Of a stretch of 64,000 nucleotides of DNA, positions 1 through 25,606 are shown in pieces. A model generated the notes under the pieces. That model did not search any database. It was given only the letters and a program-made list of their open reading frames with translations, and was not told the DNA's origin. Made by a program: the position numbers and the translations under genes. Location of the stretch: the NCBI GenBank assembly GCA_027943245.1, contig JANDJZ010000023.1, positions 160,169 to 224,168 of the forward strand. Direction: 5' to 3'. How positions within the stretch are numbered: the stretch's first letter is position 1; every line of letters begins with the position of its first letter. Source of the DNA: Acanthamoeba sp. SK_2022b (lineage: Eukaryota; Discosea; Longamoebia; Acanthamoebidae).

Positions 1-3000
1 AGTCGCTCGCGACGCCGTCATCGGCCGCGATGCATCGATCAAGGGCAACCTCGAGGTTTCGTCAGACGTTCTTGTGGGCGAGACGCTGAGCGTTGTGGGC
101 GAGACCACTCTCGAGTCTCACCTGCACGCCCTCTCCGACGCCTTCGTGGGTGGCGATCTTTCGGTTGGCGGTCAGGCTTCCATCCGCGGCGACGTGCACA
201 CCGACGGCGATCTGTTTGTGGAGAAGTCCACGAGCCTCGGTCTGGATCTGTTCGTCGTGGGCGAGACCACTCTCGAGGCCGACCTGCTCGTCAATGCCGA
301 TGCTGTCGTCACAGGCACATCATCGCTCGAGGGCAACGTGTTCGCTGGCAACGATCTGTCAGTCGCTCGCGACACCGTCATCGGCCGCGATGCATCGATC
401 AAGGGCAACCTCGAGGTTTCATCAGACGTTCTTGTGGGCGAGATGCTGAGCGTTGTGGGCGAGACCACTCTCGAGTCTCACCTGCACGCCCTTTCCAACG
501 CCTTCGTGGGTGGCGATCTTTCGATTGGCGGTCAGGCTTCCATCCGCGGCGACGTGCACACCGACGGCGATCTGTTCGTGGAGAAGTCCACGAGCCTCGG
601 TCTGGATCTGTTCGTCGTGGGCAAGACCACCCTCGAGGCCGACCTGCTCGTCAATGCCGATGCTGTCGTCACGGGCCTGTCCTCGCTCGAGGGCGACGTG
701 TTCGCCGGCAACGATCTGTCAGTCGCTCGCGACACCGTCATCGGCCGCAATGCTCTGGTAGAGGGCAACCTCGAGGTTTCGTCAGACGTTCTCGTGGGCG
801 AGACACTGAGCGTTGTGGGCGAGACCACTTTGGAGTCTCACCTGCACGCCCTCTCCGACGCCTTCGTGGGTGGCGATCTTTCGGTTGACGGTCAGGCTTC
901 CATCCGCGGCGACGTGCACACCGACGGCGATCTGTTCGTGGAGAAGTCCACCAGCCTCGGCGACCACCTCGTGGTCGTGGGCGAGACCACCCTCGAGGAC
1001 GACCTGCTCGTCGACGCCGACGCCGCCATCACTGGCTCGCTGAGCGTCACGGGCAAGTCGACTCTCGACGACGACGTGTTCGCCGGCAACGACCTGTCAG
1101 TCGCTCGCGACACCGTCATCGGCCGCGACGCATCGGTCAAGGGCGACCTCGAGGTTGCCTTGAACGCACTCGTCGGTGAGACTCTCAACGTGGCTGGCGA
1201 GACGACTCTGCAGTCGGATCTGCAGGCTCTTGCGGACGTGTACGTGAGTGGTCTTCTGTCGGTTCTTGGCTCGACGTCAGTGCGCGGCGACATGCACACC
1301 GACGGCGATCTGTTCGTGGAGAAGGCCACCAGCCTCGGCGGCCACCTCGTGGTCGTGGGCGAGACCACTCTCGAGGCCGATCTGCTCGTCGACGCCAACG
1401 CTGTCGTCGCGCAGTCATTGACAGTTGTCAAGACGGCGACCGTCGAGGGCGTCGTGCGCGGTCTGTCAGACGTGCTCGTGGGCGGCGAGCTCAAGGTGGA
1501 CAAGTTCACCGAGCTTCGCGACGGCCTCTACGTCGACGGCCTGTCTTCGTTCGCCGAGGACATGGCCGTGGGCGCCAACGTTGAGGTGAGCGGCAACGTT
1601 GCCGTGGGCGGCGATCTTGCTGTGGACGGCGATGGCGCATTCGGCGGACTGGTGTCAGTGCGCGGCGACGTGAGGACCGACGGCGATCTGTTCGTGGAGA
1701 AGTCCACCAGCCTCGGTCTGGATCTGTTCGTCGTGGGCGAGACCACTCTCGAGGCCGATCTGCTCGTCGATGCCGATGCTGTCGTCACAGGCACGTCATC
1801 GCTCGAGGGCGACGTGTTCGCTGGCAACGATCTGTCAGTCGCTCGCGACACCGTCATCGGCCGCGATGCATCGATCAAGGGCAACCTCGAGGTTTCGTCA
1901 GACGTTCTTGTGGGCGAGACGCTGAGCGTTGTGGGCGAGACCACTTTGGCGTCCCACCTGCACGCCCTCTCCGACGCCTTCGTGGGAGGCGATCTTTCGG
2001 TTGACGGTCAGGCTTCCATCCGCGGCGACGTGCACACCGACGGCGATCTGTTCGTGGAGAAGTCCACGAGCCTCGGTCTGGATCTGTTCGTCGTGGGCGA
2101 GACCATTCTCGAGGCCGATCTGCTCGTCAATGCCGATGCTGTCGTCACAGGCACATCATCTCTCGAGGGCAACGTGTTCGCTGGCAACGATCTGTCAGTC
2201 GCTCGCGACACCGTCATCGGCCGCAATGCTCTGGTAGAGGGCAACCTCGAGGTTTCGTCAGACGTTCTCGTGGGCGAGATGCTGAGCGTTGTGGGCGAGA
2301 CCACTTTGGAGTCTCACCTGCACGCCCTCTCCGACGCCTTCGTGGGTGGCGATCTTTCGGTTGACGGTCAGGCTTCCATCCGCGGCGACGTGCACACCGA
2401 CGGCGATCTGTTCGTGGAGAAGTCCACCAGCCTCGGCGACCACCTCGTGGTCGTGGGCGAGACCACTCTCGAGGACGACCTGCTCGTCGACGCCGACGCC
2501 GCCATCACTGGCTCGCTGAGCGTCACGGGCAAGTCGACTCTCGACGACGACGTGTTCGCCGGCAACGACCTGTCAGTCGCTCGCGACACCGTCATCGGCC
2601 GCGACGCATCGGTCAAGGGCGACCTCGAGGTTGCCTTGAACGCACTCGTCGGCGAGACTCTCAACGTGGCTGGCGAGACGACTCTGCAGTCAGACCTGGA
2701 GGCTCTGGCGGACGTGCATGTGAGCGGTCTTCTGTCGGTTCTTGGCTCGACGTCGGTGCGCGGCGACGTACACACCGACGGCGATCTGTTCGTGGAGAAG
2801 GCCACCAGCCTCGGCGGCCACCTCGTGGTCGTGGGCGAGACCACTCTCGAGGACGACCTGCTCGTCGATGCCAACGCCGTCGTCTCGCAGTCGCTGACGG
2901 TTGTCAAGACGGCGACCGTCGAGGGCGTCGTGCGCGGTCTGTCAGACGTGCTCGTGGGCGGCGAGCTCAAGGTGGACAAGTTCACCGAGCTTCGCGACGG

Positions 3001-6000
3001 GCTCTACGTCGACGGCCTGTCTTCGTTCGCCGAGGACATGGCCGTGGGCGCCAACGTTGAGGTGAGCGGCAACGTTGCCGTGGGCGGCGATCTTGCTGTG
3101 GACGGCGATGGCGCATTCGGCGGACTGGTGTCAGTGCGCGGCGACGTGAGGACCGACGGCGATCTGTTCGTGGAGAAGTCCACGAGCCTCGGTCTGGATC
3201 TGTTCGTCGTGGGCGAGACCACTCTCGAGGCCGACCTGCTCGTCAATGCCGATGCTGTCGTCACAGGCACGTCATCGCTCGAGGGCGACGTGTTCGCTGG
3301 CAACGATCTGTCAGTCGCTCGCGACGCCGTCATCGGCCGCGATGCATCAATCGAGGGCAACCTCGAGGTTTCGTCAGACGTTCTTGTGGGCGATACGCTG
3401 AGCGTTGTTGGCGAGACCACTCTCGAGTCTCACCTGCACGCCCTCTCCGACGCCTACATTGGTTTCGATCTTTCGGTTGGCGGTTCGGCTTCCATCCGCG
3501 GCGACGTGCACACCGACGGCGATCTGTTTGTGGAGAAGTCCACCAGCCTCGGCGAAACTCTGCTTGTCGTGGGCGAGACCACCCTCGAGGCCGACCTGCT
3601 CGTCAATGCCGATGCTGTCGTCACAGGCACATCATCGCTCGAGGGCAACGTGTTCGCTGGCAACGATCTGTCAGTCGCTCGCGACACCGTCATCGGCCGC
3701 GATGCATCGATCAAGGGCAACCTCGAGGTTTCATCAGACGTTCTTGTGGGCGAGATGCTGAGCGTTGTGGGCGAGACCACTCTCGAGTCTCACCTGCACG
3801 CCCTTTCCAACGCCTTCGTGGGTGGCGATCTTTCGATTGGCGGTCAGGCTTCCATCCGCGGCGACGTGCACACCGACGGCGATCTGTTCGTGGAGAAGTC
3901 CACCAGCCTCGGTCTGGATCTGTTCGTCGTGGGCGAGACCACTCTCGAGGCCGACCTGCTTGTCAATGCCGATGCTGTCGTCACGGGCCTGTCCTCGCTC
4001 GAGGGCGACGTGTTCGCTGGCAACGATCTGTCAGTCGCTCGCGACACCGTCATCGGCCGCAATGCATTGGTCGAGGGCAACCTCGAGGTTTCGTCAGACG
4101 TTCTTGTGGGCGATACGCTGAGCGTTGTGGGCGAGACCACTTTGGAGTCTCACCTGCACGCCCTCTCCGACGCCTTCGTGGGTGGCGATCTTTCGGTTGA
4201 CGGTCAGGCTTCCATCCGCGGCGACGTGCACACCGACGGCGATCTGTTCGTGGAGAAGTCCACCAGCCTCGGCGACCACCTCGTGGTCGTGGGCGAGACC
4301 ACTCTCGAGGACGACCTGCTCGTCGACGCCGACGCCGCCATCACTGGCTCGCTGAGCGTCACGGGCAAGTCGACTCTCGACGACGACGTGTTCGCCGGCA
4401 ACGACCTGTCAGTCGCTCGCGACACCGTCATCGGCCGCGACGCATCGGTCAAGGGCGACCTCGAGGTTGCCTTGAACGCACTCGTCGGCGAGACTCTCAA
4501 CGTGGCTGGCGAGACGACTCTGCAGTCAGACCTGGAGGCTCTTGCGGACGTGCATGTGAGCGGTCTTCTGTCGGTGCTTGGCTCTACGTCAGTGCGCGGC
4601 GACATGCACACCGACGGCGATCTGTTCGTGGAGAAGGCCACCAGCCTCGGCGGCCACCTCGTGGTCGTGGGCGAGACCACTCTCGAGGCCGATCTGCTCG
4701 TCGACGCCAACGCTGTCGTCTCGCAGTCATTGACAGTTGTCAAGACGGCGACCGTCGAGGGCGTCGTGCGCGGTCTGTCAGACGTGCTCGTGGGCGGCGA
4801 GCTCAAGGTGGACAAGTTCACCGAGCTTCGCGACGGCCTCTACGTCGACGGCCTGTCTTCGTTCGCCGAGGACATGGCCGTGGGCGCCAACGTTGAGGTG
4901 AGCGGCAACGTTGCCGTGGGCGGCGATCTTGCTGTGGACGGCGATGGCGCATTCGGCGGACTGGTGTCAGTGCGCGGCGACGTGAGGACCGACGGCGATC
5001 TGTTCGTGGAGAAGTCCACGAGCCTCGGTCTGGATCTGTTCGTCGTGGGCGAGACCACTCTCGAGGCCGACCTGCTCGTCAATGCCGATGCTGTCGTCAC
5101 AGGCACGTCATCGCTCGAGGGCAACGTGTTCGCTGGCAACGATCTGTCAGTCGCTCGCGACGCCGTCATCGGCCGCAATGCTCTAGTCGAGGGCGACCTC
5201 GAGGTTTCGTCAGACGTTCTTGTGGGCGATACGCTGAGCGTTGTTGGCGAGACCACTCTCGAGTCTCACCTGCACGCCCTCTCCGACGCCTACATTGGTT
5301 TCGATCTTTCGGTTGGCGGTTCGGCTTCCATCCGCGGCGACGTGCACACCGACGGCGATCTGTTTGTGGAGAAGTCCACCAGCCTCGGCGAAACTCTGCT
5401 TGTCGTGGGCGAGACCACCCTCGAGGCCGACCTGCTCGTCAATGCCGATGCTGTCGTCACAGGCACATCATCGCTCGAGGGCAACGTGTTCGCTGGCAAC
5501 GATCTGTCAGTCGCTCGCGACACCGTCATCGGCCGCGATGCATCGATCAAGGGCAACCTCGAGGTTTCATCAGACGTTCTTGTGGGCGAGATGCTGAGCG
5601 TTGTGGGCGAGACCACTCTCGAGTCTCACCTGCACGCCCTTTCCAACGCCTTCGTGGGTGGCGATCTTTCGATTGGCGGTCAGGCTTCCATCCGCGGCGA
5701 CGTGCACACCGACGGCGATCTGTTCGTGGAGAAGTCCACGAGCCTCGGTCTGGATCTGTTCGTCGTGGGCAAGACCACCCTCGAGGCCGACCTGCTCGTC
5801 AATGCCGATGCTGTCGTCACGGGCCTGTCCTCGCTCGAGGGCGACGTGTTCGCCGGCAACGATCTGTCAGTCGCTCGCGACACCGTCATCGGCCGCAATG
5901 CTCTGGTAGAGGGCAACCTCGAGGTTTCGTCAGACGTTCTCGTGGGCGAGACACTGAGCGTTGTGGGCGAGACCACTTTGGAGTCTCACCTGCACGCCCT

Positions 6001-6450
6001 CTCCGACGCCTTCGTGGGTGGCGATCTTTCGGTTGACGGTCAGGCTTCCATCCGCGGCGACGTGCACACCGACGGCGATCTGTTCGTGGAGAAGTCCACC
6101 AGCCTCGGCGACCACCTCGTGGTCGTGGGCGAGACCACTCTCGAGGACGACCTTCTCGTCGACGCCAACGCTGTCATCTCGCAGTCGCTGACAGTTGTCA
6201 AGACGGCAACTGTCGAAGGTGTCGTGCGCGGTCTGTCAGACGTGCTCGTGGGCGGCGAGCTCAAGGTGGACAAGTTCACCGAGCTTCGCGACGGCCTCTA
6301 CGTCGACGGCCTGTCTTCGTTCGCCGAGGACATGACCGTGGGCGCCAACGTTGATATTACCGGCAACGTGAACATTGGTGAAGACCTTGAGGTCGGCCAG
6401 GATGCGTCCATCATCGGCGATCTCTCCGTACGCGGTGACGTTAACACCGA
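1..6450 (+). repeat. Coding tandem array, family A (360/378-bp units)
   Basis: Bases 1, 361 and 721 begin nearly identical 60-base lines, so the basic period is 360 bp (20 hexads, 120 aa); some units are 378 bp (21 hexads). The recurrent sequence is the SLSVVGETTL / DAFVGGDLSV / TDGDLFVEKSTSLG series. A larger block recurs: the motif at about 1528 returns at 3004 (1,476 bp later) and again at 4840 (1,836 bp later), the difference being exactly one 360-bp unit. All spacings are multiples of 18 bp, so every gain or loss keeps both the reading frame and the hexad register. Copies are more than 95% identical over long stretches, pointing to recent expansion or gene conversion. Confidence 0.9.
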
Positions 6451-9400
6451 TGGCGATCTGTTCGTGGAGAAGAGCACGAGCCTCGGCAATGACCTCACGG
6501 TTGTGGGCGAGACCAGCCTTAACGCTGGCCTCGATGTGCTGGGCGCCACCTACCTCCATGATTCGCTCAGTGTTGACTCCGACGCGCGCATCACAGGCAC
6601 TCTTTCAGTAGAGTCGGACCTCACGGTCGACAAGGATGTGGTCGTGTATGGCGACCTCTCTGTGGATGGCGCCACCTCTTTGTCATCGACTCTCGACGTC
6701 TTTGGCGTGGCCTCATTCGCCACCGACGTGACCGTGGCTGCTGACGCTCTTGTGGAGGGCAGCCTCGTGGTCAACGTCAACGCTGATGTCATCGGCGACA
6801 TTTCCGTTCACGGCGACGTCAACACGGATGGCGAGCTATTCGTGGAGAAGAGCACGAGCCTCGGCAACACGCTCTACGTGCACGCTGGCACCGACCTCGG
6901 CTCCACTCTTGAAGTGGCAGGCGCGAGCAGCTTCCAGGGCTACGTCTTCGTCAACAACGAAGCCTCCATCTCTGGCACCGTGTGGGCTGGCTGGGACATG
7001 TCGGTCGATCGCGACGTCATCGTCGGCAGGAACACCCACCTCCTTGGCGACCTGGCCGTCAGCGGCAAGGCGCAGGTGGACGGCAAGTCATCGGTCAAGG
7101 GCGAGCTCGTCGTGGACGACAAGGTCACCTTCCAAGACGATCTCGATGTCTATGGCGAGGTGTCGGTGCGCGGCGACGTCAACACCGACGGCGATCTGTT
7201 CGTGGAGAAGTCCACCAGCCTCGGCGATCACCTCACGGTCGTGGGCGAGACGAGCTTGGGCTCAGGCCTCGACGTGCTTGGCGAGACCAGCATCCACAAC
7301 TGGTTCTTCGTCGACAACGACGCCCAGGTGACGGGCACCCTGTGGGTGGACTACGACCTCTCAGTCGGTCGCAACCTCGTGCTCGAGAACGACGCCTCGG
7401 TCGGCGGCGACGTCGAGATCAGCGGCTACGCCCTCGTGAGCGGCCTGGCATCGCTCGAGGACCGACTTGTGGTCGACGGCGAGACGACCCTCGCGAGCGA
7501 CCTGTTCGCGCGGGCCGACGTCTTGGTGGATGGCGAGCTGTCGGTGAACGGCGACGTGCAGATCGACAGCGCGCTGTTTGTCGAGGATGCCACGAGCCTC
7601 GGCGACGACCTCACGGTCGTGGGCGAGACCAGCCTCAACGCCGGTCTCGACGTGCTGGGCGCCACCTATCTCCACGCCTCCCTCAGCGTCGACGCTGATA
7701 TGCGCGTTTTGGGCACTCTGTCGGTTGGAACTGATCTCACCGTTGACCACAACGCCCATGTGTCTGGTACCCTTTCAGTCACTGGTGCTACTGTTCTGGC
7801 ATCAACTTTCGAAGTTGCTGGACACGCTGCGTTCGCTTCGGGGGTTGCATCGTTCATTGCCGACGTGACCATGGAAGCGGATGCGCATGTTGATGGCAGT
7901 CTCGTGGTCAACGCCAATGCCAACGTTCATGGCGAAGTGTCCGTGCGCGGCGACGTCAACACGGATGGCGAGCTGTTCGTGGAGAAGAGCACGAGCCTCG
8001 GCAACACGCTCTACGTGCACGCTGGCACCGACCTCGGCTCCACTCTTGAAGTGGCAGGCGCGAGCAGCTTCCAGGGCTACGTCTTCGTCAACAACGAAGC
8101 CTCCATCTCTGGCACCGTGTGGGCCGGCTGGGACATGTCGGTCGACCGCGACGTCATCGTCGGCAGGAACACCCACCTCCTTGGCGACCTGGCCGTCAGC
8201 GGCAAGTCACAGGTGGACGGCAAGTCATCGGTCAAGGGCGAGCTCGTCGTGGACGACATGGTCACCTTCCAAGACGATCTCGATGTCTATGGCGAGGTGT
8301 CGGTGCGCGGCGACATCAACACCGACGGCGATCTGTTCGTAGAGAAGAGCTCGAGCCTCGGCGCCAACCTCACGGTCGTGGGCGAGACGAGCTTGGGCTC
8401 AGGCCTCGACGTGCAGGGCGAGACCAGCATCCACAACTGGTTCTTCGTCGACAACGATGCCCAGGTGACGGGCACCCTGTGGGTGGACTACGACCTCTCA
8501 GTCGGTCGCAACCTCGTGCTCGAGAACGACGCCTCGGTCGGCGGCGACGTCGAGATCAGCGGCTACGCCCTCGTGAGCGGCCTGGCATCGCTCGAGGACC
8601 GACTTGTGGTCGACGGCGAGACGACCCTCGCGAGCGACCTGTTCGCGCGGGCCGACGTCTTGGTGGATGGCGAGCTGTCGGTGAACGGCGACGTGCAGAT
8701 CGACAGCGCGCTGTTTGTCGAGGATGCCACGAGCCTCGGCGACGACCTCACGGTCGTTGGCGAGACCAGCCTCAATGGCGACCTCGACGTGCTGGGCGCC
8801 ACCTACCTCCATGCTTCGCTCAGCGTCGATGCCGACGCGCTCATCACAGGCACTCTGTCGGTCGAGTCGGACCTCACGGTCGACGAGGACGCGGTCGTGT
8901 CTGGCGACCTCTCTGTGGACGGCGCCACCTCTTTGTCATCGACTCTCGACGTCTTTGGCGTGGCCTCATTCGCCGCCGATGTGACCGTGGCTGCTGACGC
9001 TCTTGTGGAGGGCAGCCTCGTGGTCAACGTCAACGCTGATGTCATCGGCGACATTTCCGTTCACGGCGACGTCAACACGGATGGCGAGCTGTTCGTGGAG
9101 AAGAGCACGAGCCTCGGCAACACGCTCTACGTGCACGCTGGCACCGACCTCGGTTCCACTCTTGAAGTGGCAGGCGCGAGCAGCTTCCAGGGCTACGTCT
9201 TCGTCAACAACGAAGCCTCCATCTCTGGCACCGTGTGGGCCGGCTGGGACATGTCGGTCGACCGCGACGTCATCGTCGGCAGGAACACCCACCTCCTTGG
9301 CGACCTGGCCGTCAGCGGCAAGGCGCAGGTGGACGGCAAGTCATCGGTCAAGGGCGAGCTCGTCGTGGACGACAAGGTCACCTTCCAAGACGATCTCGAT

Positions 9401-12400
9401 GTCTATGGCGAGGTGTCGGTGCGCGGCGACGTCAACACCGACGGCGATCTGTTCGTGGAGAAGAGCTCGAGCCTCGGCGCCGACCTCACGGTCGTGGGCG
9501 AGACCAGCCTCAGGGGCCGCCTCGACGTGCTTGGCGAGACCACCATCCACAACTACCTCTCCGTCACCAACGACGCCGCCGTGACAGGCACCCTCTGGGC
9601 CGACTTCGACCTCTCGGTCGGCCGCGATCTCATCGTCGAGAGCAACGTGTGGACCAAGGGCACCCTCCAGGTCGACCAGCAGACCTCCCTCAGGTCGGAC
9701 CTCGTGGTCGACGGCAGCAGCACGCTCGCCGGCGATCTGCTGGCTCAGGCCGATGCGCTCATCAGCGGCGAGCTGTCGGTGCGCGGCAACGTGCGCACCG
9801 ACGGCGATCTGTTCGTGGAGAAGACCACCAGCCTCGGCGACGACCTCACGGTCGTTGGAGAGACCAGCCTCACTGGCGGCCTCGACGTGCTGGGCGCCAC
9901 CTATCTCCATGCTTCGCTCAGTGTTGACGCCGACGCGCTCGTCACAGGCACTCTGTCGGTCGAGTCGGACCTCACGGTCGACGAGGACGCGTTCGTGTCT
10001 GGCGACCTCTCTGTGGATGGCGCCACCTCTCTGTCATCGACTCTCGACGTCTTTGGCGTGGCCTCATTCGCCACCGACGTGACCGTGGCTGCTGACGCTC
10101 TTGTGGAGGGCAGCCTCGTGGTCAGCACCGACGCTGACGTTCTGGGAGACGTTTCCGTTCACGGCGACATCAACACTGATGGCGAGCTGTTCGTGGAAAA
10201 GAGCACGAGCCTCGGCGACGACCTCACGGTCGTTGGCGAGACCAGCCTCAACGCCGGTCTCGACGTGCTGGGCGCCACCTATCTCCATGCTTCGCTCAGT
10301 GTTGACGCCGACGCGCTCATCACAGGCACTCTGTCGGTCGAGTCGGATCTCACGGTCGACGATGACGCGTTCGTGTCTGGCGACCTCTCTGTGGACGGCG
10401 CCACCTCTCTGTCATCGACTCTCGACGTCTTTGGCGTGGCCTCATTCGCCACCGACGTGACCGTGGCTGCTGACGCTCTTGTGGAGGGCAGCCTCGTGGT
10501 CAACGTCAACGCTGATGTCATCGGCGACATTTCCGTTCACGGCGACATCAACACGGATGGCGAGCTGTTCGTGGAGAAGAGCACGAGCCTCGGCAACACG
10601 CTCTACGTGCACGCTGGCACCGACCTCGGTTCCACTCTTGAAGTGGCAGGCGCGAGCAGCTTCCAGGGCTACGTCTTCGTCAACAACGAAGCCTCCATCT
10701 CTGGCACCGTGTGGGCTGGCTGGGACATGTCGGTCGACCGCGACGTCATCGTCGGCAGGAACACCCACCTCCTTGGCGACCTGGCCGTCAGCGGCAAGTC
10801 ACAGGTGGACGGCAAGTCATCGGTCAAGGGCGAGCTCGTCGTGGACGACAAGGTCACCTTCCAAGACGATCTCGATGTCTATGGCGAGGTGTCGGTGCGC
10901 GGCGACATCAACACCGACGGCGATCTGTTCGTGGAGAAGACCACCAGCCTCGGCGCCAACCTCACGGTCGTGGGCGAGACGAGCTTGGGCTCAGGCCTCG
11001 ACGTGCTTGGCGAGACCAGCATCCACAACTGGTTCTTCGTCGACAACGACGCCCAGGTGACGGGCACCCTGTGGGTGGACTACGACCTCTCAGTCGGTCG
11101 CAACCTCGTGCTCGAGAATGACGCCTCGGTCGGCGGCGACGTCGAGATCAGCGGCTACGCCCTCGTGAGCGGCCTGGCATCGCTCGAGGACCGACTTGTG
11201 GTCGACGGCGAGACGACCCTCGCGAGCGACCTGTTCGCGCGGGCCGACGTCTTGGTGGATGGCGAGCTGTCGGTGAACGGCGACGTGCAGATCGACAGCG
11301 CGCTGTTTGTCGAGGATGCCACGAGCCTCGGCGACGACCTCACGGTCGTGGGCGAGACCAGCCTCTCTGGCGGCCTCGACGTGCTGGGCGCCACCTATCT
11401 CCATGCTTCGCTCAGCGTCGACGCCGACGCGCTCGTCACAGGCACTCTGTCGGTCGAGTCGGATCTCACGGTCGACGAGGACGCGGTCGTGTCTGGCGAC
11501 CTCTCTGTGGACGGCGCCACCTCTCTGTCATCGACTCTCGACGTCTTTGGCGTGGCCTCATTCGCCACCGACGTGACCATGGCTGCTGACGCTCTTGTGG
11601 AGGGCAGCCTCGTGGTCAACACCGACGCTGACGTTCTGGGAGACGTTTCCGTTCACGGCGACATCAACACTGATGGCGAGCTGTTCGTGGAAAAGAGCAC
11701 GAGCCTCGGCGACGACCTCACGGTCGTTGGCGAGACCAGCCTCAACGCCGGTCTCGACGTGCTGGGCGCCACCTATCTCCATGCTTCGCTCAGCGTCGAC
11801 GCCGACGCGCTCATCACAGGCACTCTGTCGGTCGAGTCGGATCTCACGGTCGACGATGACGCGTTCGTGTCTGGCGACCTCTCTGTGGACGGCGCCACCT
11901 CTCTGTCATCGACTCTCGACGTCTTTGGCGTGGCCTCATTCGCCGCCGATGTGACCGTGGCTGCTGACGCTCTTGTGGAGGGCAGCCTCGTGGTCAACGT
12001 CAACGCTGATGTAGTCGGCGACGTTTCCGTTCACGGCGACGTCAACACGAATGGCGATCTCTACGTGGAGAAGAGCACGAGCCTCGGCGACGACCTCACG
12101 GTCGTTGGCGAGACCAGCCTCAATGGCGACCTCGACGTGCTGGGCGCCACCTATCTCCATGCTTCGCTCAGCGTCGACGCCGACGCGCTCATCACAGGCA
12201 CTCTGTCGGTCGAGTCGGATCTCACGGTCGACGAGGACGCGTTCGTGTCTGGTGACCTCTCTGTGGATGGCGCCACCTCTCTGTCATCGACTCTCGACGT
12301 CTTTGGCGTGGCCTCATTCGCCGCCGACGTGACCGTGGCTGCTGACGCTCTTGTGGAGGGCAGCCTCGTGGTCAACGTCAACGCTGATGTCATCGGCGAC

Positions 12401-15400
12401 ATTTCCGTTCACGGCGACGTCAACACGGATGGCGAGCTGTTCGTGGAGAAGAGCACGAGCCTCGGCAACACGCTCTACGTGCACGCTGGCACCGACCTCG
12501 GCTCCACTCTTGAAGTGGCAGGCGCGAGCAGCTTCCAGGGCTACGTCTTCGTCAACAACGAAGCCTCCATCTCTGGCACCGTGTGGGCCGGCTGGGACAT
12601 GTCGGTCGACCGCGACGTCATCGTCGGCAGGAACACCCACCTCCTTGGCGACCTGGCCGTCAGCGGCAAGGCGCAGGTGGACGGCAAGTCATCGGTCAAG
12701 GGCGAGCTCGTCGTGGACGACAAGGTCACCTTCCAAGACGATCTCGATGTCTACGGCGAGGTGTCGGTGCGCGGCGACGTCAACACCGACGGCGATCTGT
12801 TCGTGGAGAAGACCACCAGCCTCGGCGCCAACCTCACGGTCGTGGGCGAGACGAGCTTGGGCTCAGGCCTCGACGTGCAGGGCGAGACCAGCATCCACAA
12901 CTGGTTCTTCGTCGACAACGACGCCCAGGTGACGGGCACCCTGTGGGTGGACTACGACCTCTCAGTCGGTCGCAACCTCGTGCTCGAGAACGACGCCTCG
13001 GTCGGCGGCGACGTCGAGATCAGCGGCTACGCCCTCGTGAGCGGCCTGGCATCGCTCGAGGACCGACTTGTGGTCGACGGCGAGACGACCCTCGCGAGCG
13101 ACCTGTTCGCGAGGGCCGACGTCTTGGTGGATGGCGAGCTATCGGTGAACGGCAACGTGCAGATCGACAGCGCGCTGTTTGTCGAGGACGCCGCGAGCCT
13201 CGGCGACGACCTCACGGTCGTGGGCGAGACCAGCCTCAACGCCGGTCTCGACGTGCTGGGCGCCACCTATCTCCATGCTTCGCTCAGTGTTGACGCCGAC
13301 GCGCTCATCACAGGCACTCTGTCGGTCGAGTCGGATCTCACGGTCGACGATGACGCGTTCGTGTCTGGCGACCTCTCTGTGGACGGCGCCACCTCTCTGT
13401 CATCGACTCTCGACGTCTTTGGCGTGGCCTCATTCGCCACCGACGTGACCGTGGCTGCTGACGCTCTTGTGGAGGGCAGCCTCGTGGTCAGCACCGATGC
13501 TGACGTTCTGGGAGACGTTTCCGTTCACGGCGACGTCAACACTGATGGCGATCTCTACGTGGAAAAGAGCACGAGCCTCGGCGACGACCTCACGGTCGTT
13601 GGCGAGACCAGCCTCAACGGCGGTCTCGACGTGCTGGGCGCCACCTATCTCCATGCTTCGCTCAGCGTCGACGCCGACGCGCTCATCACAGGCACTCTGT
13701 CGGTCGAGTCGGATCTCACGGTCGACGATGACGCGTTCGTGTCTGGCGACCTCTCTGTGGACGGCGCCACCTCTTTGTCATCGACTCTCGACGTCTTTGG
13801 CGTGGCCTCATTCGCCGCCGATGTGACCGTGGCTGCTGACGCTCTTGTGGAGGGCAGCCTCGTGGTCAACACCGACGCTGACGTTCTGGGAGACGTTTCC
13901 GTTCACGGCGACGTCAACACGAATGGCGATCTCTACGTGGAGAAGAGCACGAGCCTCGGCGACGACCTCACGGTCGTGGGCGAGACCAGCCTCAGCGGCC
14001 GCCTCGAAGTGCAGGGCGAGACCACCATCCACAACTACCTCTCCGTCACCAACGACGCAGCCGTGACAGGCACCCTCTGGGCCGACTTCGACCTCTCGGT
14101 CGGCCGTGACCTCATCGTCGAGAGCAACGTGTGGACCAAGGGCACCCTCCAGGTCGACCAGCAGGCCTCCCTCAGGTCGGACCTCGTGGTCGACGGCAGC
14201 AGCACGCTCGCCGGCGATCTGCTGGCTCAGGCCGATGCGCTCATCAGCGGCGAGCTGTCGGTGCGCGGTAACGTGCACACCGATGGCGATCTGTTCGTGG
14301 AGAAGACCACCAGCCTCGGCAGCAACGTAACCGTGGTGGGCGAGACCAGCCTCGGCGGCAAGCTCGACGTTCTGGGCCAGACCAGCATCCATGACTTCTT
14401 CTTCGTTGATAATGATGCTCAGATCACTGGCACCGTCTTCATCGATTTCGATCTTTCCATCGACCGCTTCCTGCGCGTCGAAAGCGACTCCGAGCTCGTT
14501 GGCAAGCTGCACGTCGGTGATAACGTTATTATTGACGGCCTCACCTCGCTAAACGGCCTCGACGTTACTGGCCAGACCACTCTCAGCGACGACCTCTTCG
14601 TCGTTGGTGCTGGCTCCATTGGCGGTCTGCTGACGGTTAGAGGCAACCTTGGTACCGATGGCAACCTGTTGGTTGAGAACGACTCGCGTATCGGCGGCCT
14701 CCTCTCCGTCGTCGGCGACGCCGAGCTTGACAGCGACCTTTCCGTCGGCGGTAGTGTCGATGTTATTGGCGATCTTGTCGTATCTCAGACCCTGCTTGTC
14801 ACCCTCGATGCTACCCTCAAGGGCGACGTGGCCATTGATCAGGACCTCTCCGTGGGCGGCGGTTTGAGCGTCACCCTTCTCGCCAGGTTCCTCGACGAGC
14901 TCTCGGTCTCAGGAACTACCTCCCTCGAGGCCGATGTCTACGCTCACCGTCTGCACGTCCGCGACACCCTTTCCGTCGGGGGCGTCGCCGTCATCCAGGG
15001 AACCTTCTCCGTTGACGACACCGCCACCATCGATGGCACTGTGAGCATCGGCAACGCCCTGTCCGTTCACCACAAGGTTGTATTCGAGAACACTCTCGAA
15101 GTAGCCGGTCAGGTGAACTTCAGCCACGACCTCTCAGTGAGCGGCGACGTTCACCTGGACGTAGACCTCTCGGTAGATGGCCAGGCCACCATTGGCGGCA
15201 AGCTGAGCGTTGCGGGCCTTACCACCCTGCTCGGCGAGCTGTCCGTCAAGCAAAACGCCGAGTTCCTGGCCAGCGCTGCCATCTTCGGTGACCTCGACGT
15301 CGGTCAGCTTGCCCGCTTCGTCGGTGACGTGCATCTCACCAGCGATCTCAGCGTCGATGGCGCGACCACTCTTGCCGTCCTCAGCGTCAGCGGTCTCTCC

Positions 15401-16546
15401 GAGTTCAGCGACGATGTCGAGATCTCGGCCGATCTTAGCGTGAGCGGCGACCTCACTGTGGGCGGTGCTTTGTCCCTAAGCATGCTCACTGTGGGCTCCG
15501 ACGCCACTATCGGCGACAACCTGTTTGTGCAGGACTACGCCACCATAGGAATCGACCTGGAGGTCTACGGTGCGGTCTCGGTGGGCTCGGACCTCGAGGT
15601 CACCGGTTCCACTACGCTCGCCTTCGTTGAGGCCAACACCCTCAGCGTAAGCCATAACCTCATCGCCAACAAGGATCTCTTCGTCACCAAAGATGTTGCC
15701 GTCTCTGGTTCCGTCACCGTGGCCGGTGGCCTCAACGTCATCCAAGACGTCACCGTCATTGGCACCCTCACCGCCGACTACGTCCGCGCTGTCAACGGCC
15801 TCCACGCCCTTGGCACCACCCAACTTGGCGGCACCGACATCTCCGGTTATCTCAGCGTGGCTGGCGATGTGAGCCTCGATTCCACGCTCTACGTCTCCGA
15901 TAGCCTCACCGTGGCCGGCGAGTTGGTTCTCCTCGACTCACTCTCGCTGGCCCAGGACCTCACCGTCTCCGGCGTGACCGCCCTTGACGATGTTGTTGTC
16001 GCTGGTGAGCTCTCCCTAGAGGGCCGTCTCGAGCTGGCCAAGAAGCCGCTCTCATTCCCTTATCCTGGCGTGGTTGCCGGCGTGCCTGTCAACCTGCTCG
16101 ACACCGTCACCGCCCATCCTTCGTCGCCTCTTAGCTACTACCTGCACACCTTCGCTGATTCGGGTGCCGCCAGCACAGATTACTTTGCCCTCTCTCTCCC
16201 CGGTGGAGCGTTCTACCAGCTCGAGCCGCTCGACCTCGATCTCCCCATGGTTTCGCGCATCGAGACGACTAACTACCAGGTGGGAGACATCATCATGCTC
16301 AAGGGTTCCAGCAAAGACAAGATCATCGCCTTCTGGGACTTCGAGGACCTGGTGAACGTCGTCGGCTCCGGTCCCAACGGCAACTTGTACAACGGCAGGG
16401 ACATGTCGACGGCCACCCTCAACTTCTACACCGAGTACCTCTACTCGGACGACATCTTCATCTACATGTATTCGCCTCGCACTCGCGTCGGTGTCGCCGG
16501 TTCTGCGATACAGACCATTCCCATCGAGTGGGTGAAGCTCAACTAA
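2..16546 (+). CDS. Giant hexapeptide-repeat (beta-solenoid) protein, 5' partial
   Basis: The frame is open from the first codon of the window (base 2) to TAA at 16544-16546, giving more than 5,500 codons with no intron; the true start lies to the left. The protein reads almost throughout in register of six residues, e.g. GDLFVE-KSTSLG-LDLFVV, with a small or hydrophobic residue at positions 3 and 5 of each hexad and Gly, Asp, Ser or Thr at the turns. Six-residue periodicity of this kind is known from triangular beta-helices (bactofilins, hexapeptide transferases, viral and bacterial fibre shafts), so a very long fibrous solenoid is inferred. Most units are marked by TDGDLFVEKSTSLG or a variant, every 120 or 126 residues. 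The last 160 or so residues (from about 16045) are non-repetitive and rich in aromatic residues and could be a cap or attachment domain. No membrane helix or anchor signal is visible at the C-terminus. The N-terminus, and so any signal peptide, is outside the window. Function unknown; a surface or cyst-wall fibre, adhesin or cytoskeletal filament are all possible. Confidence 0.85.
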   Translation, partial: VARDAVIGRDASIKGNLEVSSDVLVGETLSVVGETTLESHLHALSDAFVGGDLSVGGQASIRGDVHTDGDLFVEKSTSLGLDLFVVGETTLEADLLVNADAVVTGTSSLEGNVFAGNDLSVARDTVIGRDASIKGNLEVSSDVLVGEMLSVVGETTLESHLHALSNAFVGGDLSIGGQASIRGDVHTDGDLFVEKSTSLGLDLFVVGKTTLEADLLVNADAVVTGLSSLEGDVFAGNDLSVARDTVIGRNALVEGNLEVSSDVLVGETLSVVGETTLESHLHALSDAFVGGDLSVDGQASIRGDVHTDGDLFVEKSTSLGDHLVVVGETTLEDDLLVDADAAITGSLSVTGKSTLDDDVFAGNDLSVARDTVIGRDASVKGDLEVALNALVGETLNVAGETTLQSDLQALADVYVSGLLSVLGSTSVRGDMHTDGDLFVEKATSLGGHLVVVGETTLEADLLVDANAVVAQSLTVVKTATVEGVVRGLSDVLVGGELKVDKFTELRDGLYVDGLSSFAEDMAVGANVEVSGNVAVGGDLAVDGDGAFGGLVSVRGDVRTDGDLFVEKSTSLGLDLFVVGETTLEADLLVDADAVVTGTSSLEGDVFAGNDLSVARDTVIGRDASIKGNLEVSSDVLVGETLSVVGETTLASHLHALSDAFVGGDLSVDGQASIRGDVHTDGDLFVEKSTSLGLDLFVVGETILEADLLVNADAVVTGTSSLEGNVFAGNDLSVARDTVIGRNALVEGNLEVSSDVLVGEMLSVVGETTLESHLHALSDAFVGGDLSVDGQASIRGDVHTDGDLFVEKSTSLGDHLVVVGETTLEDDLLVDADAAITGSLSVTGKSTLDDDVFAGNDLSVARDTVIGRDASVKGDLEVALNALVGETLNVAGETTLQSDLEALADVHVSGLLSVLGSTSVRGDVHTDGDLFVEKATSLGGHLVVVGETTLEDDLLVDANAVVSQSLTVVKTATVEGVVRGLSDVLVGGELKVDKFTELRDGLYVDGLSSFAEDMAVGANVEVSGNVAVGGDLAVDGDGAFGGLVSVRGDVRTDGDLFVEKSTSLGLDLFVVGETTLEADLLVNADAVVTGTSSLEGDVFAGNDLSVARDAVIGRDASIEGNLEVSSDVLVGDTLSVVGETTLESHLHALSDAYIGFDLSVGGSASIRGDVHTDGDLFVEKSTSLGETLLVVGETTLEADLLVNADAVVTGTSSLEGNVFAGNDLSVARDTVIGRDASIKGNLEVSSDVLVGEMLSVVGETTLESHLHALSNAFVGGDLSIGGQASIRGDVHTDGDLFVEKSTSLGLDLFVVGETTLEADLLVNADAVVTGLSSLEGDVFAGNDLSVARDTVIGRNALVEGNLEVSSDVLVGDTLSVVGETTLESHLHALSDAFVGGDLSVDGQASIRGDVHTDGDLFVEKSTSLGDHLVVVGETTLEDDLLVDADAAITGSLSVTGKSTLDDDVFAGNDLSVARDTVIGRDASVKGDLEVALNALVGETLNVAGETTLQSDLEALADVHVSGLLSVLGSTSVRGDMHTDGDLFVEKATSLGGHLVVVGETTLEADLLVDANAVVSQSLTVVKTATVEGVVRGLSDVLVGGELKVDKFTELRDGLYVDGLSSFAEDMAVGANVEVSGNVAVGGDLAVDGDGAFGGLVSVRGDVRTDGDLFVEKSTSLGLDLFVVGETTLEADLLVNADAVVTGTSSLEGNVFAGNDLSVARDAVIGRNALVEGDLEVSSDVLVGDTLSVVGETTLESHLHALSDAYIGFDLSVGGSASIRGDVHTDGDLFVEKSTSLGETLLVVGETTLEADLLVNADAVVTGTSSLEGNVFAGNDLSVARDTVIGRDASIKGNLEVSSDVLVGEMLSVVGETTLESHLHALSNAFVGGDLSIGGQASIRGDVHTDGDLFVEKSTSLGLDLFVVGKTTLEADLLVNADAVVTGLSSLEGDVFAGNDLSVARDTVIGRNALVEGNLEVSSDVLVGETLSVVGETTLESHLHALSDAFVGGDLSVDGQASIRGDVHTDGDLFVEKSTSLGDHLVVVGETTLEDDLLVDANAVISQSLTVVKTATVEGVVRGLSDVLVGGELKVDKFTELRDGLYVDGLSSFAEDMTVGANVDITGNVNIGEDLEVGQDASIIGDLSVRGDVNTDGDLFVEKSTSLGNDLTVVGETSLNAGLDVLGATYLHDSLSVDSDARITGTLSVESDLTVDKDVVVYGDLSVDGATSLSSTLDVFGVASFATDVTVAADALVEGSLVVNVNADVIGDISVHGDVNTDGELFVEKSTSLGNTLYVHAGTDLGSTLEVAGASSFQGYVFVNNEASISGTVWAGWDMSVDRDVIVGRNTHLLGDLAVSGKAQVDGKSSVKGELVVDDKVTFQDDLDVYGEVSVRGDVNTDGDLFVEKSTSLGDHLTVVGETSLGSGLDVLGETSIHNWFFVDNDAQVTGTLWVDYDLSVGRNLVLENDASVGGDVEISGYALVSGLASLEDRLVVDGETTLASDLFARADVLVDGELSVNGDVQIDSALFVEDATSLGDDLTVVGETSLNAGLDVLGATYLHASLSVDADMRVLGTLSVGTDLTVDHNAHVSGTLSVTGATVLASTFEVAGHAAFASGVASFIADVTMEADAHVDGSLVVNANANVHGEVSVRGDVNTDGELFVEKSTSLGNTLYVHAGTDLGSTLEVAGASSFQGYVFVNNEASISGTVWAGWDMSVDRDVIVGRNTHLLGDLAVSGKSQVDGKSSVKGELVVDDMVTFQDDLDVYGEVSVRGDINTDGDLFVEKSSSLGANLTVVGETSLGSGLDVQGETSIHNWFFVDNDAQVTGTLWVDYDLSVGRNLVLENDASVGGDVEISGYALVSGLASLEDRLVVDGETTLASDLFARADVLVDGELSVNGDVQIDSALFVEDATSLGDDLTVVGETSLNGDLDVLGATYLHASLSVDADALITGTLSVESDLTVDEDAVVSGDLSVDGATSLSSTLDVFGVASFAADVTVAADALVEGSLVVNVNADVIGDISVHGDVNTDGELFVEKSTSLGNTLYVHAGTDLGSTLEVAGASSFQGYVFVNNEASISGTVWAGWDMSVDRDVIVGRNTHLLGDLAVSGKAQVDGKSSVKGELVVDDKVTFQDDLDVYGEVSVRGDVNTDGDLFVEKSSSLGADLTVVGETSLRGRLDVLGETTIHNYLSVTNDAAVTGTLWADFDLSVGRDLIVESNVWTKGTLQVDQQTSLRSDLVVDGSSTLAGDLLAQADALISGELSVRGNVRTDGDLFVEKTTSLGDDLTVVGETSLTGGLDVLGATYLHASLSVDADALVTGTLSVESDLTVDEDAFVSGDLSVDGATSLSSTLDVFGVASFATDVTVAADALVEGSLVVSTDADVLGDVSVHGDINTDGELFVEKSTSLGDDLTVVGETSLNAGLDVLGATYLHASLSVDADALITGTLSVESDLTVDDDAFVSGDLSVDGATSLSSTLDVFGVASFATDVTVAADALVEGSLVVNVNADVIGDISVHGDINTDGELFVEKSTSLGNTLYVHAGTDLGSTLEVAGASSFQGYVFVNNEASISGTVWAGWDMSVDRDVIVGRNTHLLGDLAVSGKSQVDGKSSVKGELVVDDKVTFQDDLDVYGEVSVRGDINTDGDLFVEKTTSLGANLTVVGETSLGSGLDVLGETSIHNWFFVDNDAQVTGTLWVDYDLSVGRNLVLENDASVGGDVEISGYALVSGLASLEDRLVVDGETTLASDLFARADVLVDGELSVNGDVQIDSALFVEDATSLGDDLTVVGETSLSGGLDVLGATYLHASLSVDADALVTGTLSVESDLTVDEDAVVSGDLSVDGATSLSSTLDVFGVASFATDVTMAADALVEGSLVVNTDADVLGDVSVHGDINTDGELFVEKSTSLGDDLTVVGETSLNAGLDVLGATYLHASLSVDADALITGTLSVESDLTVDDDAFVSGDLSVDGATSLSSTLDVFGVASFAADVTVAADALVEGSLVVNVNADVVGDVSVHGDVNTNGDLYVEKSTSLGDDLTVVGETSLNGDLDVLGATYLHASLSVDADALITGTLSVESDLTVDEDAFVSGDLSVDGATSLSSTLDVFGVASFAADVTVAADALVEGSLVVNVNADVIGDISVHGDVNTDGELFVEKSTSLGNTLYVHAGTDLGSTLEVAGASSFQGYVFVNNEASISGTVWAGWDMSVDRDVIVGRNTHLLGDLAVSGKAQVDGKSSVKGELVVDDKVTFQDDLDVYGEVSVRGDVNTDGDLFVEKTTSLGANLTVVGETSLGSGLDVQGETSIHNWFFVDNDAQVTGTLWVDYDLSVGRNLVLENDASVGGDVEISGYALVSGLASLEDRLVVDGETTLASDLFARADVLVDGELSVNGNVQIDSALFVEDAASLGDDLTVVGETSLNAGLDVLGATYLHASLSVDADALITGTLSVESDLTVDDDAFVSGDLSVDGATSLSSTLDVFGVASFATDVTVAADALVEGSLVVSTDADVLGDVSVHGDVNTDGDLYVEKSTSLGDDLTVVGETSLNGGLDVLGATYLHASLSVDADALITGTLSVESDLTVDDDAFVSGDLSVDGATSLSSTLDVFGVASFAADVTVAADALVEGSLVVNTDADVLGDVSVHGDVNTNGDLYVEKSTSLGDDLTVVGETSLSGRLEVQGETTIHNYLSVTNDAAVTGTLWADFDLSVGRDLIVESNVWTKGTLQVDQQASLRSDLVVDGSSTLAGDLLAQADALISGELSVRGNVHTDGDLFVEKTTSLGSNVTVVGETSLGGKLDVLGQTSIHDFFFVDNDAQITGTVFIDFDLSIDRFLRVESDSELVGKLHVGDNVIIDGLTSLNGLDVTGQTTLSDDLFVVGAGSIGGLLTVRGNLGTDGNLLVENDSRIGGLLSVVGDAELDSDLSVGGSVDVIGDLVVSQTLLVTLDATLKGDVAIDQDLSVGGGLSVTLLARFLDELSVSGTTSLEADVYAHRLHVRDTLSVGGVAVIQGTFSVDDTATIDGTVSIGNALSVHHKVVFENTLEVAGQVNFSHDLSVSGDVHLDVDLSVDGQATIGGKLSVAGLTTLLGELSVKQNAEFLASAAIFGDLDVGQLARFVGDVHLTSDLSVDGATTLAVLSVSGLSEFSDDVEISADLSVSGDLTVGGALSLSMLTVGSDATIGDNLFVQDYATIGIDLEVYGAVSVGSDLEVTGSTTLAFVEANTLSVSHNLIANKDLFVTKDVAVSGSVTVAGGLNVIQDVTVIGTLTADYVRAVNGLHALGTTQLGGTDISGYLSVAGDVSLDSTLYVSDSLTVAGELVLLDSLSLAQDLTVSGVTALDDVVVAGELSLEGRLELAKKPLSFPYPGVVAGVPVNLLDTVTAHPSSPLSYYLHTFADSGAASTDYFALSLPGGAFYQLEPLDLDLPMVSRIETTNYQVGDIIMLKGSSKDKIIAFWDFEDLVNVVGSGPNGNLYNGRDMSTATLNFYTEYLYSDDIFIYMYSPRTRVGVAGSAIQTIPIEWVKLN
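6451..14400 (+). repeat. Coding tandem array, family B (378-bp units)
   Basis: From about 6340 the sequence changes to a second, diverged unit type with ETSLNAGLDVLGATYLHASL, SVDGATSLSSTLDVFGVASF and a variant with GTVWAGWDMSVDRDVIVGRN. Neighbouring copies are 378 bp apart (for example 9901 and 10279, 11395 and 11773, 13267 and 13645), that is 21 hexads. Blocks of 1,494 bp (9901 to 11395) and 1,872 bp (11395 to 13267) repeat in turn; both are multiples of 18 bp. One interval, about 7580 to 7979, is 399 bp and carries a seven-residue insertion that breaks the hexad register. After about 14400 the hexads continue but are no longer near-identical copies. Confidence 0.88.
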
Positions 16547-24460: not shown

Positions 24461-25443
24461 TTACACGACCTTCTTCTGGTGGAAAAAGTTCCTGCAGAGG
24501 ACAGGCTCAGCATCCCGGACGGGATAGGACAGCGGGATTGGGGAGAAGCGTACTTGAGGTGCCTCACCTGCCAGAAGGCAGAGCCGATGAGAAGAAGGGT
24601 CTGAGCGACGGACCACCACATCACGCGGCTGTTAGTGGACTCGCTAGTGTCCCGGAAGGCCATCTCGCGTTTCTGCCGAGAAACAACAAAGTAGTGGTGA
24701 GCAGCTTGGTCTGAACCCTATCCCATGTCGTGCGACCAAGGCGCTACGTATATTGTACCTTCTGGTAAAGCTGCTCGCCGATGATCTCATGCACGGCGTC
24801 GTTCAGCTGACGCAGGTGAACCTCGATGGCTGGGCAAGCGAGAGAGAGAGAGAGAGAGAGTGAGATAAAGCAAGGGAACGGGTGAGCCCGAGAGAGATGT
24901 CAAAGTGTCATTGTTAAGCTGAACGGTACCGCTCAAGGACTCGAGACGAGCCACTTCGGCATAGTCCGTTGCGCCCACGCCAGTCTCAATCTCAACTTGC
25001 AGCTCCTGGGCGGCACGTATGAGTAATAGAGGGGACATGTCAAGATTGGATGTGGGGGAGCTTACGAATTCGGCGCCCTGAGCGAACCACTTGCCAGTGT
25101 TGGTCTGAAGGCAAATCTTGTGCTCGCCACCAACCTGAGCTGTGAAGGCGTAGCGCCCTTCGGCACCAAGCTCCCTTCGGGCGATGAATTCGTTGGAGGG
25201 GCCATCGACGGTGACAATCCACCCCTTCTGCTCTCCCTGATGCTGATTGTAGGGATCGTCTCCCGCCTTCTTCTGCGTGCTTGTGTACTTGACCAGCACC
25301 AATGTGTCCTTCGGCACGTCTTCGAGGAAGCATTTCCTGCCTCCTTCTTGAACTTCCATAAAGAGGGGCGATCCGATTGTGCCCAGCACCATCATCAATA
25401 GCACCACGCCCAAAGACAGCGCGATCAATCCAGCGGACTTCAT
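24461..25443 (-). CDS. p24/TMED (emp24/GP25L) cargo receptor
   Basis: Starts at ATG 25443 with signal peptide [20 protein letters not shown]; an upstream in-frame ATG at 25548 would put 35 polar residues before the signal and is unlikely. The GOLD domain follows: [20 protein letters not shown] and [16 protein letters not shown] hold the two conserved Cys. After the neck and coiled coil ([20 protein letters not shown], about 24790-24830) comes [20 protein letters not shown], the transmembrane segment [20 protein letters not shown], and a last exon giving NFFHQKKVV with TAA at 24461-24463. The FF and KK signals bind COPII and COPI coats respectively, as in other p24 proteins. Acts in ER-Golgi cargo sorting. 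Promoter is shared with the S-formylglutathione hydrolase gene. Confidence 0.92.
24841..24862. repeat. (GA)n microsatellite in p24 intron
   Basis: About 11 GA units inside a p24 gene intron. Confidence 0.85.
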
Positions 25444-25606
25444 CTTCCGTATCTTGTGTAGATGTGGCGGTAGGCCTGCTGATTCGCTTGTGCTCTGGTT
25501 CTGCTTGTGGAGCCACCTAGCCACGTCAGCACGCTGGCGAAATTTCATTCAGATAGCGGTTCGAAGCCCCCATGCGTGGGGGCTTGCAGCAAAGGCGTAG
25601 AAGCAG
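25444..25606. promoter_or_regulatory. Divergent intergenic region with short hairpin
   Basis: The 163 bp between the p24 ATG (-) and the hydrolase ATG (+) must hold both promoters. A perfect inverted repeat, AAGCCCCC at 25564-25571 and GGGGGCTT at 25578-25585 with a six-base loop, lies about 22 nt before the hydrolase ATG and would be in its 5' leader. Confidence 0.5.

Follow-up and report, generated by a model that had tools for sequence, protein, structure and literature searches.

A giant hexapeptide-repeat gene of Acanthamoeba sp. SK_2022b and its predicted product, a secreted triangular beta-helix rod

The stretch of DNA analysed here, referred to as the window, comprises 64,000 nucleotides of Acanthamoeba sp. 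SK_2022b (assembly GCA_027943245.1, contig JANDJZ010000023.1) and carries at its left edge the 3' part of a giant gene whose product is built of six-residue units (hexads). The window forms the end of the contig (C398 below; 224,168 bases of a 44.9 Mb genome), with window base 1 at C398:160169. The frame at window 2-16546 on the forward strand is in frame through the left edge and uninterrupted over coding bases 2-16543. A sequence-only reading had described it as a giant intronless hexapeptide-solenoid protein at window 2-16546. The start lies outside the window, as the 7,166-codon frame begins at C398:155214, 4,955 bases before the window, and directly upstream of it lie two further frames of 2,881 and 2,495 codons with the same repeats. 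The total coding span, C398:139110-176714, amounts to ~12,440 codons and begins ~21 kb before the window, which carries 44% of the whole gene. The solenoid also stops short of the C-terminus, the last 169 residues of the frame (from residue ~5,346) being of a non-solenoid kind.

The start codon at C398:139110 opens MNWAYLLLFLALLSVSVSKGQG, which was judged by eye to be signal-peptide-like. A predicted intron of 205 bases (GT..AG, with matching phase) would part this putative signal-peptide exon from the giant exon at C398:139380, from which 37,335 bases run to the stop. The signal peptide, the intron and the splice of the giant gene are thus predictions, and since they place an exon and an intron upstream, the description of the gene as intronless does not hold for the gene as a whole.

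The hexad pattern itself was pronounced. Best-path segmentation of residues 1-5345 of the window frame gave 885 hexads with 35 residues skipped and longest gap-free runs of 435 and 372 units, whereas in one shuffled copy 820 hexads could be forced only by skipping 425 residues, and no run exceeded 17 units. The most frequent hexad in the window solenoid was L-x-V-x-G-D. Hydrophobic autocorrelation reached 0.267 at lag 6, where none of 200 shuffles exceeded 0.042, and was stronger still at lag 12 (0.475); in a fixed phase, the hydrophobic fraction reached 0.95 in the solenoid of the giant gene. Some hexads departed from the ideal, the first core position being occupied by V, L, I, M, F, Y or W in 61% of hexads and the second in 90%. 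The hexads are in turn organised as super-repeats of 120 or 126 residues. In the window, 37 of 39 super-repeat spacings were multiples of six, the two exceptions, 133 and 125, being one-residue register slips. The estimate of about 900 consecutive hexads thus stood as to number but not as to continuity, as the slips mean that the units do not form a single uninterrupted run. Counted by frame, 50 of the 52 spacings in the 7,166-codon frame (the window included) were multiples of six, as were 19 of 20 in that of 2,881 codons. Length changes occur as whole hexads, less strictly in the first frame, that of 2,495 codons.

A slice of the solenoid (252 residues), together with 18 paralogous slices, was used as input for AlphaFold2. 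The model was a regular beta-solenoid (predicted local distance difference test score, pLDDT, 89.2; predicted template modelling score, pTM, 0.75) with 42 three-residue strands spaced exactly six residues apart. Structure prediction on a slice of about this size had been suggested at the outset, and the confident solenoid, taken with the superposition on chains of the PDB described below, supports the proposal of a triangular beta-helix in which three hexads make a turn. Beta-helices rise by ~0.48 nm per turn. At 18 residues per turn, the part of the shaft in the window would correspond to ~297 turns and ~140 nm, in agreement with the expected rod of well over 100 nm. Over the three frames 2,061 hexads were segmented, ~1,950 without the N-terminal region, and the whole span would come to ~650 turns and ~310 nm if intact.

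Foldseek found no match of the model to the PDB at an expect value (E) of 0.001 or below, and 68 matches at E up to 10. Superposition was carried out with VIA-align, by which 76 chains were compared and 50 entries listed. The best values were those of HxuA (4i84), with a root-mean-square deviation (rmsd) of 2.3 Å over 176 residues, of the HMW1 secretion domain (2odl), with 2.7 Å over 226 residues, and, of the alignments of greater length, that of the antifreeze protein 3p4g, with 3.7 Å over 226 residues; these best superposing chains (2.3-3.7 Å) are right-handed helices. Going by their names, fourteen of the 50 listed entries were hexapeptide proteins of the left-handed type (GlmU, LpxD, LpxA, YdcK, QdtC and VTC1-KJC2); all of these lay at 11.4-12.2 Å despite high Z scores, and the remaining 36 at 2.3-8.7 Å. 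The split in rmsd is what the same triangular geometry with the opposite hand, as in a mirror image, would produce. With its fit to right-handed helices and its poor fit to left-handed ones, the modelled geometry thus looks bactofilin-like; no bactofilin chain was among the PDB entries listed by Foldseek and VIA-align.

The Pfam scan of the solenoid, made on two slices, pointed to the same family. The bactofilin profile PF04519 exceeded its curated cut-off of 27.9 bits with 107 bits over ten stretches and with 54.9 bits in the other slice, and was the strongest profile (E 6.1e-31 over a 667-residue slice). The LbH profile PF00132 stayed below its cut-off in one slice (11.4 bits versus 27) and was unlisted in the other. 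A left-handed hexapeptide fold, to which the sequence profile run against the PDB pointed, was considered and set aside as less likely, as both the superposition and the PF00132 cut-off argue against it. The fold and hand of the shaft are predicted; the model favours a right-handed triangular beta-helix, while the sequence profile leans to the left.

The surface that such a helix would present is strongly acidic. The 5,345 solenoid residues of the window include no cysteine and no proline; aspartate and glutamate make up 17.1%, lysine and arginine 3.7%, and the net charge is -716, or ~-2.4 per 18-residue turn. The site TDGDLFVEKSTSLG and its variants occur 40 times in the window solenoid and hold 35 of its 90 lysines. 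Sites of this type recur every 120 or 126 residues (~3.3 nm), and at 18 residues per turn they land on all three faces. They may serve for docking.

Constraint on the protein was estimated from 326 equal-length pairs of super-repeats within the window, which are not independent of one another, as the ratio of nonsynonymous to synonymous substitution rates (dN/dS). The 107 pairs with a synonymous rate (dS) below 0.4, divided into three dS classes, had median dN/dS values of 0.24, 0.40 and 0.34. For the other 219, at a dS of at least 0.4, the medians were 1.09 and 0.69; these pairs count neither way, as units of unlike hexad content were compared without gaps. In 99 close pairs, the two core positions had nonsynonymous rates of 0.038 and 0.048 per codon, and the turn positions had rates of 0.084 and 0.127. 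The values below 1 in close pairs, together with the slow core positions, suggest that the super-repeats are constrained at the level of the protein.

Relatives of the giant protein were few. A first protein search gave three hits among 998 scored candidates (P0003, P0004 and P0005); such searches covered relatives of up to ~9,650 residues. P0004 is a EukProt protein of 4,515 residues labelled as a complete Trinity open reading frame, and thus derives from a transcriptome. It ends in a C-terminal domain homologous to that of the giant protein (74.7 bits, compared with at most 21.2 in 100 shuffles), with the stretches VGDII, KGS, YNGR, YMYSPR and EWV in common. It also begins with a hydrophobic, signal-peptide-like leader, and the GQ..GGD sites that lie near the N-terminus of the giant protein (three distinct sites) are found in P0004 as well (five), the pattern having been derived from these two proteins themselves. 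The N-terminal regions matched in BLAST with 96 bits, against at most 49.7 in shuffles. The giant protein and P0004 are thus two members of a eukaryotic family, in which the leader, the N-terminal modules and the shaft appear to be shared less firmly than the C-terminal domain. P0003 is a phage tail-fibre protein according to PHROG, and P0005 a similar-looking protein with no PHROG match at E 1e-10. The searches of the organism's own genome point to a single locus for the giant gene, with at least 17 of 17 Pfam matches and at least 75 of 75 solenoid matches on contig C398. A frame on contig C1057, tried as a relative of the N-terminal region (E 0.008), was discarded as a glycine-rich frame in which no hexads were seen by eye. 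The C-terminal 169 residues had no Pfam match above cut-off and no PHROG match, and in the organism's own genome matched only themselves (one of one candidate). Protein searches with the C-terminal region returned only the query itself among 381 candidates in one case and none of 1,027 in another, and no relative of the domain was found in IMG/VR, in phage records or in GTDB genomes. In the open-licence literature searched, no title or opening of an abstract described this protein.

The gene probably, though by no means certainly, encodes a secreted giant structural fibre protein, a single-chain right-handed triangular rod of a coat or wall. Secretion, a prerequisite for the wall, scale or adhesive role first suggested, draws support from the start of the protein, signal-peptide-like by eye. 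The signal peptide would direct the protein to the secretory pathway. Three glycine-rich GQ..GGD sites would lie in a short N-terminal region, which would precede a shaft of ~1,950 hexads (with the frames as they stand), folding strand by strand into a continuous right-handed triangular beta-helix in which three hexads, or 18 residues, make one turn of ~0.48 nm. The C-terminal domain would cap or anchor the rod. The product would be stiff and strongly acidic, and free of cysteine in the part encoded in the window, and most likely it would serve as a structural element, either strut or filament, in the cell coat or in the wall of a resting stage, with the TDGDLFVEKSTSLG-type sites as regular docking or cross-linking points.

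Several known systems offer a comparison. The bactofilin profile matches many stretches of the giant protein. A bactofilin is a single domain of ~110 residues in a small protein, whereas the giant chain has about the length of 100 such domains and ends in an additional C-terminal domain. Bactofilins also polymerise short units in the cytoplasm, whereas the giant chain is predicted from its signal-peptide-like start to be secreted. The giant protein would thus act like a covalent bactofilin filament, but by its architecture would not be a bactofilin. PMC12448750 gives the bactofilin fold as a right-handed triangular beta-helix, with structures cited, and counts bactofilins among polymers typically absent from eukaryotes; in PMC4372379 the bactofilin is predicted to be left-handed. 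Among wall proteins of Acanthamoeba itself, the Jonah cyst-wall lectins are described in PMC11934332 as secreted proteins with one or three beta-helical folds, and on that description they resemble the giant protein in its predicted secretion and fold and differ in having no giant shaft. Phage tail-fibre and baseplate proteins and fibre-like proteins of giant viruses have a similar-looking hexad solenoid, with matches in PHROG and BFVD, but no common N- or C-terminal domain was found in the viral collections searched. LpxA, LpxD and GlmU are built of six-residue units, three per turn. They give weak sequence-profile matches to the giant solenoid; in contrast to it, they are enzymes, and the model superposes on them only as it would on a helix of the opposite hand.

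A number of observations weigh against the proposed rod or parts of it. AlphaFold2 tends toward regular solenoids for repeats, and the confidence of the model therefore weighs less. The sequence profile of the solenoid matched 34 PDB chains at E up to 1 (lowest E 8.8e-7), and most of these are left-handed transferases by name. In a second AlphaFold2 model, of the C-terminal part (364 residues, two sequences), the first 120 residues form a solenoid with block pLDDT of at least 80 (window 15452 to ~15811), but residues 196-364, which include the C-terminal domain, fell below 50. Multiples of six made up no more than 6 of the 11 super-repeat spacings of the 2,495-codon frame. In the 99 close pairs, the positions flanking the second core residue evolved hardly faster than the core (0.051 and 0.064), and synonymous rates also varied by hexad position, from 0.024 to 0.101. 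As to P0004, the N-terminal score of 96 bits exceeds by a modest margin the 77 bits that the N-terminus of the window frame scored on the protein's own solenoid. The GQ..GGD pattern, moreover, gave four hits (three distinct sites) in the shaft of the phage protein P0003. The shaft of P0004, itself shorter, lacks the regular hexad phase of the giant gene (hydrophobic fractions of at most 0.6 in 120-residue segments, against up to 0.95) and matches bactofilin with 29.1 bits only. Finally, the coding span is broken near C398:146,770-147,020 and 155,370-155,450 and bears a compensated frameshift near C398:144,010-144,300, and 26 of 128 overlapping 500-base segments showed gaps of other than a multiple of three against their best paralogous copy (134 segments tried, six without alignment). 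With at least three disruptions of the upstream frames, a single full-length molecule of ~12,000 residues is to be expected only if the span is intact.

Of the other explanations, the one that survives best keeps the secreted shaft and assigns it another task, as the long stalk of an adhesin that binds prey or a substrate with the C-terminal domain as its tip. That this domain is kept between two divergent proteins while their shafts differ would fit such a tip, and several of the superposing chains bear the names of adhesins or of wall proteins resembling them. A cap or assembly domain would be conserved just as well, however, and by eye no membrane anchor or GPI (glycosylphosphatidylinositol)-like tail is visible at the C-terminus, so that we regard an adhesin as rather unlikely.

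The shaft may instead have come from a virus, as a giant-virus or phage fibre gene that was captured and then expanded by the host. The search of BFVD gave 15 matches at E of 0.001 or below (325 at E up to 10), of which the eight named came from Pyramimonas orientalis virus, Gaeavirus, Ostreococcus mediterraneus virus 2, Tetraselmis virus 1, a Synechococcus phage and a ranavirus; PHROG families of fibre, baseplate and unknown function matched the solenoid with E down to 3.3e-36, and the tail-fibre protein P0003 matched the giant protein with 28% identity over 59% of the query. The superpositions of the 15 BFVD matches were loose, however (no template modelling score to the query above 0.49, and rmsd values of 7.8-33.7 Å), and hexad similarity by itself may be convergence. 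The C-terminal domain, as mentioned above, had no relative in the viral, phage and GTDB collections searched, and for the N-terminal region IMG/VR likewise gave none; the predicted spliced signal-peptide exon and a secretory-pathway gene of the emp24/GOLD type in the window also speak for a eukaryotic setting. We therefore consider a viral fibre gene an unlikely origin.

The breaks in the upstream frames raise the question of whether the array is a decaying pseudogene, or one whose copy number was produced by the assembly. Exact repeats of at least 100 bases make up 46% of the array and reach 719 bases, so that the copy number may indeed be off, and up to 12 non-triplet gaps fell in a single segment. 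The two most gap-dense segments, with 12 and 9 gaps, both cover the first break (C398:146770-147020), where a dense cluster of small gaps, confined by eye to ~250 bases, lies between long open frames and looks like poor assembly consensus more than decay. Against decay also stand the 7,166 stop-free codons, the 102 of 128 segments that have no non-triplet gap, dN/dS below 1 in close copies and the slower core positions. Decay or misassembly is on these grounds improbable as an explanation of the array. Equally improbable is a shaft of three chains with one strand per chain in each layer, as in virus fibre shafts, for which the stronger periodicity at 12 than at 6 residues (0.475 versus 0.267) and the failure of 120-residue units to fill a whole number of 18-residue turns could be adduced, since a single chain was modelled with high confidence as a regular solenoid and the step from 120 to 126 residues is one hexad, tolerable for a single chain with three like faces.

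Of ten window frames scanned against Pfam, two gave a match. An emp24/gp25L/GOLD-domain frame (window 24790-25548, reverse strand), a eukaryotic secretory-pathway gene, lies downstream of the giant gene, and a BD-FAE alpha/beta-hydrolase match above cut-off lies at window 40928-42049, also on the reverse strand. At window 56351-56665 there is a compact tandem-repeat array, rich in GTG and ATG, with overlapping periods of 36-87 bases, which would read as histidine-rich on one strand. A single capsid family was searched for in the genome, PF16903 (Capsid_N); it matched with 49.4 bits on another contig (C358:22743-22892), possibly an endogenised virus gene, and only there, not on the contig of the giant gene. 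The parts of the giant gene that lie in the window, including the end of the solenoid, where both Pfam bactofilin and PHROG virus-fibre profiles match, are given in Table 1.

Table 1. Parts of the giant gene within the window (window positions; TRF, Tandem Repeats Finder)
Feature	Position	Strand	Remarks
3' part of the 7,166-codon frame: 5,514 codons and stop	2..16546	+	open frame
Solenoid block A, 120/126-residue super-repeats, L-x-V-x-G-D type	2..6175	+	TRF period 360, 16.9 copies
Solenoid linking blocks A and B; one-residue register slip between residues 2,518 and 2,651 (spacing 133)	6176..9795	+	
Solenoid block B; super-repeats	9796..14018	+	TRF period 378, 11.3 copies
Slice modelled with AlphaFold2	11372-12127	+	inside block B
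Last part of the solenoid, less repetitive; register slip ahead of residue 4,884 (spacing 125)	14019..16036	+	
C-terminal non-solenoid domain, 169 residues	16037..16543	+	from residue ~5,346

Hexad beta-helices are familiar as short units of the bacterial cytoskeleton, as enzymes and as virus fibres. As a bolder proposal, which we put forward tentatively and rate somewhat short of probable, the giant gene may represent a new eukaryotic family, in which a secreted, bactofilin-like right-handed rod of ~12,400 residues and ~0.3 micrometre, formed by a single molecule and grown by tandem expansion in hexad quanta, acts as a ruler or strut with evenly spaced docking sites. If true, a whole filament would be contained in one secreted eukaryotic chain, and the length of the fibre would be set by the length of the gene and not by polymerisation. 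Such a protein would be a test case for the folding of beta-solenoids with hundreds of turns and for their passage through the secretory pathway, and would add a candidate structural part to the coat or wall of a protist.
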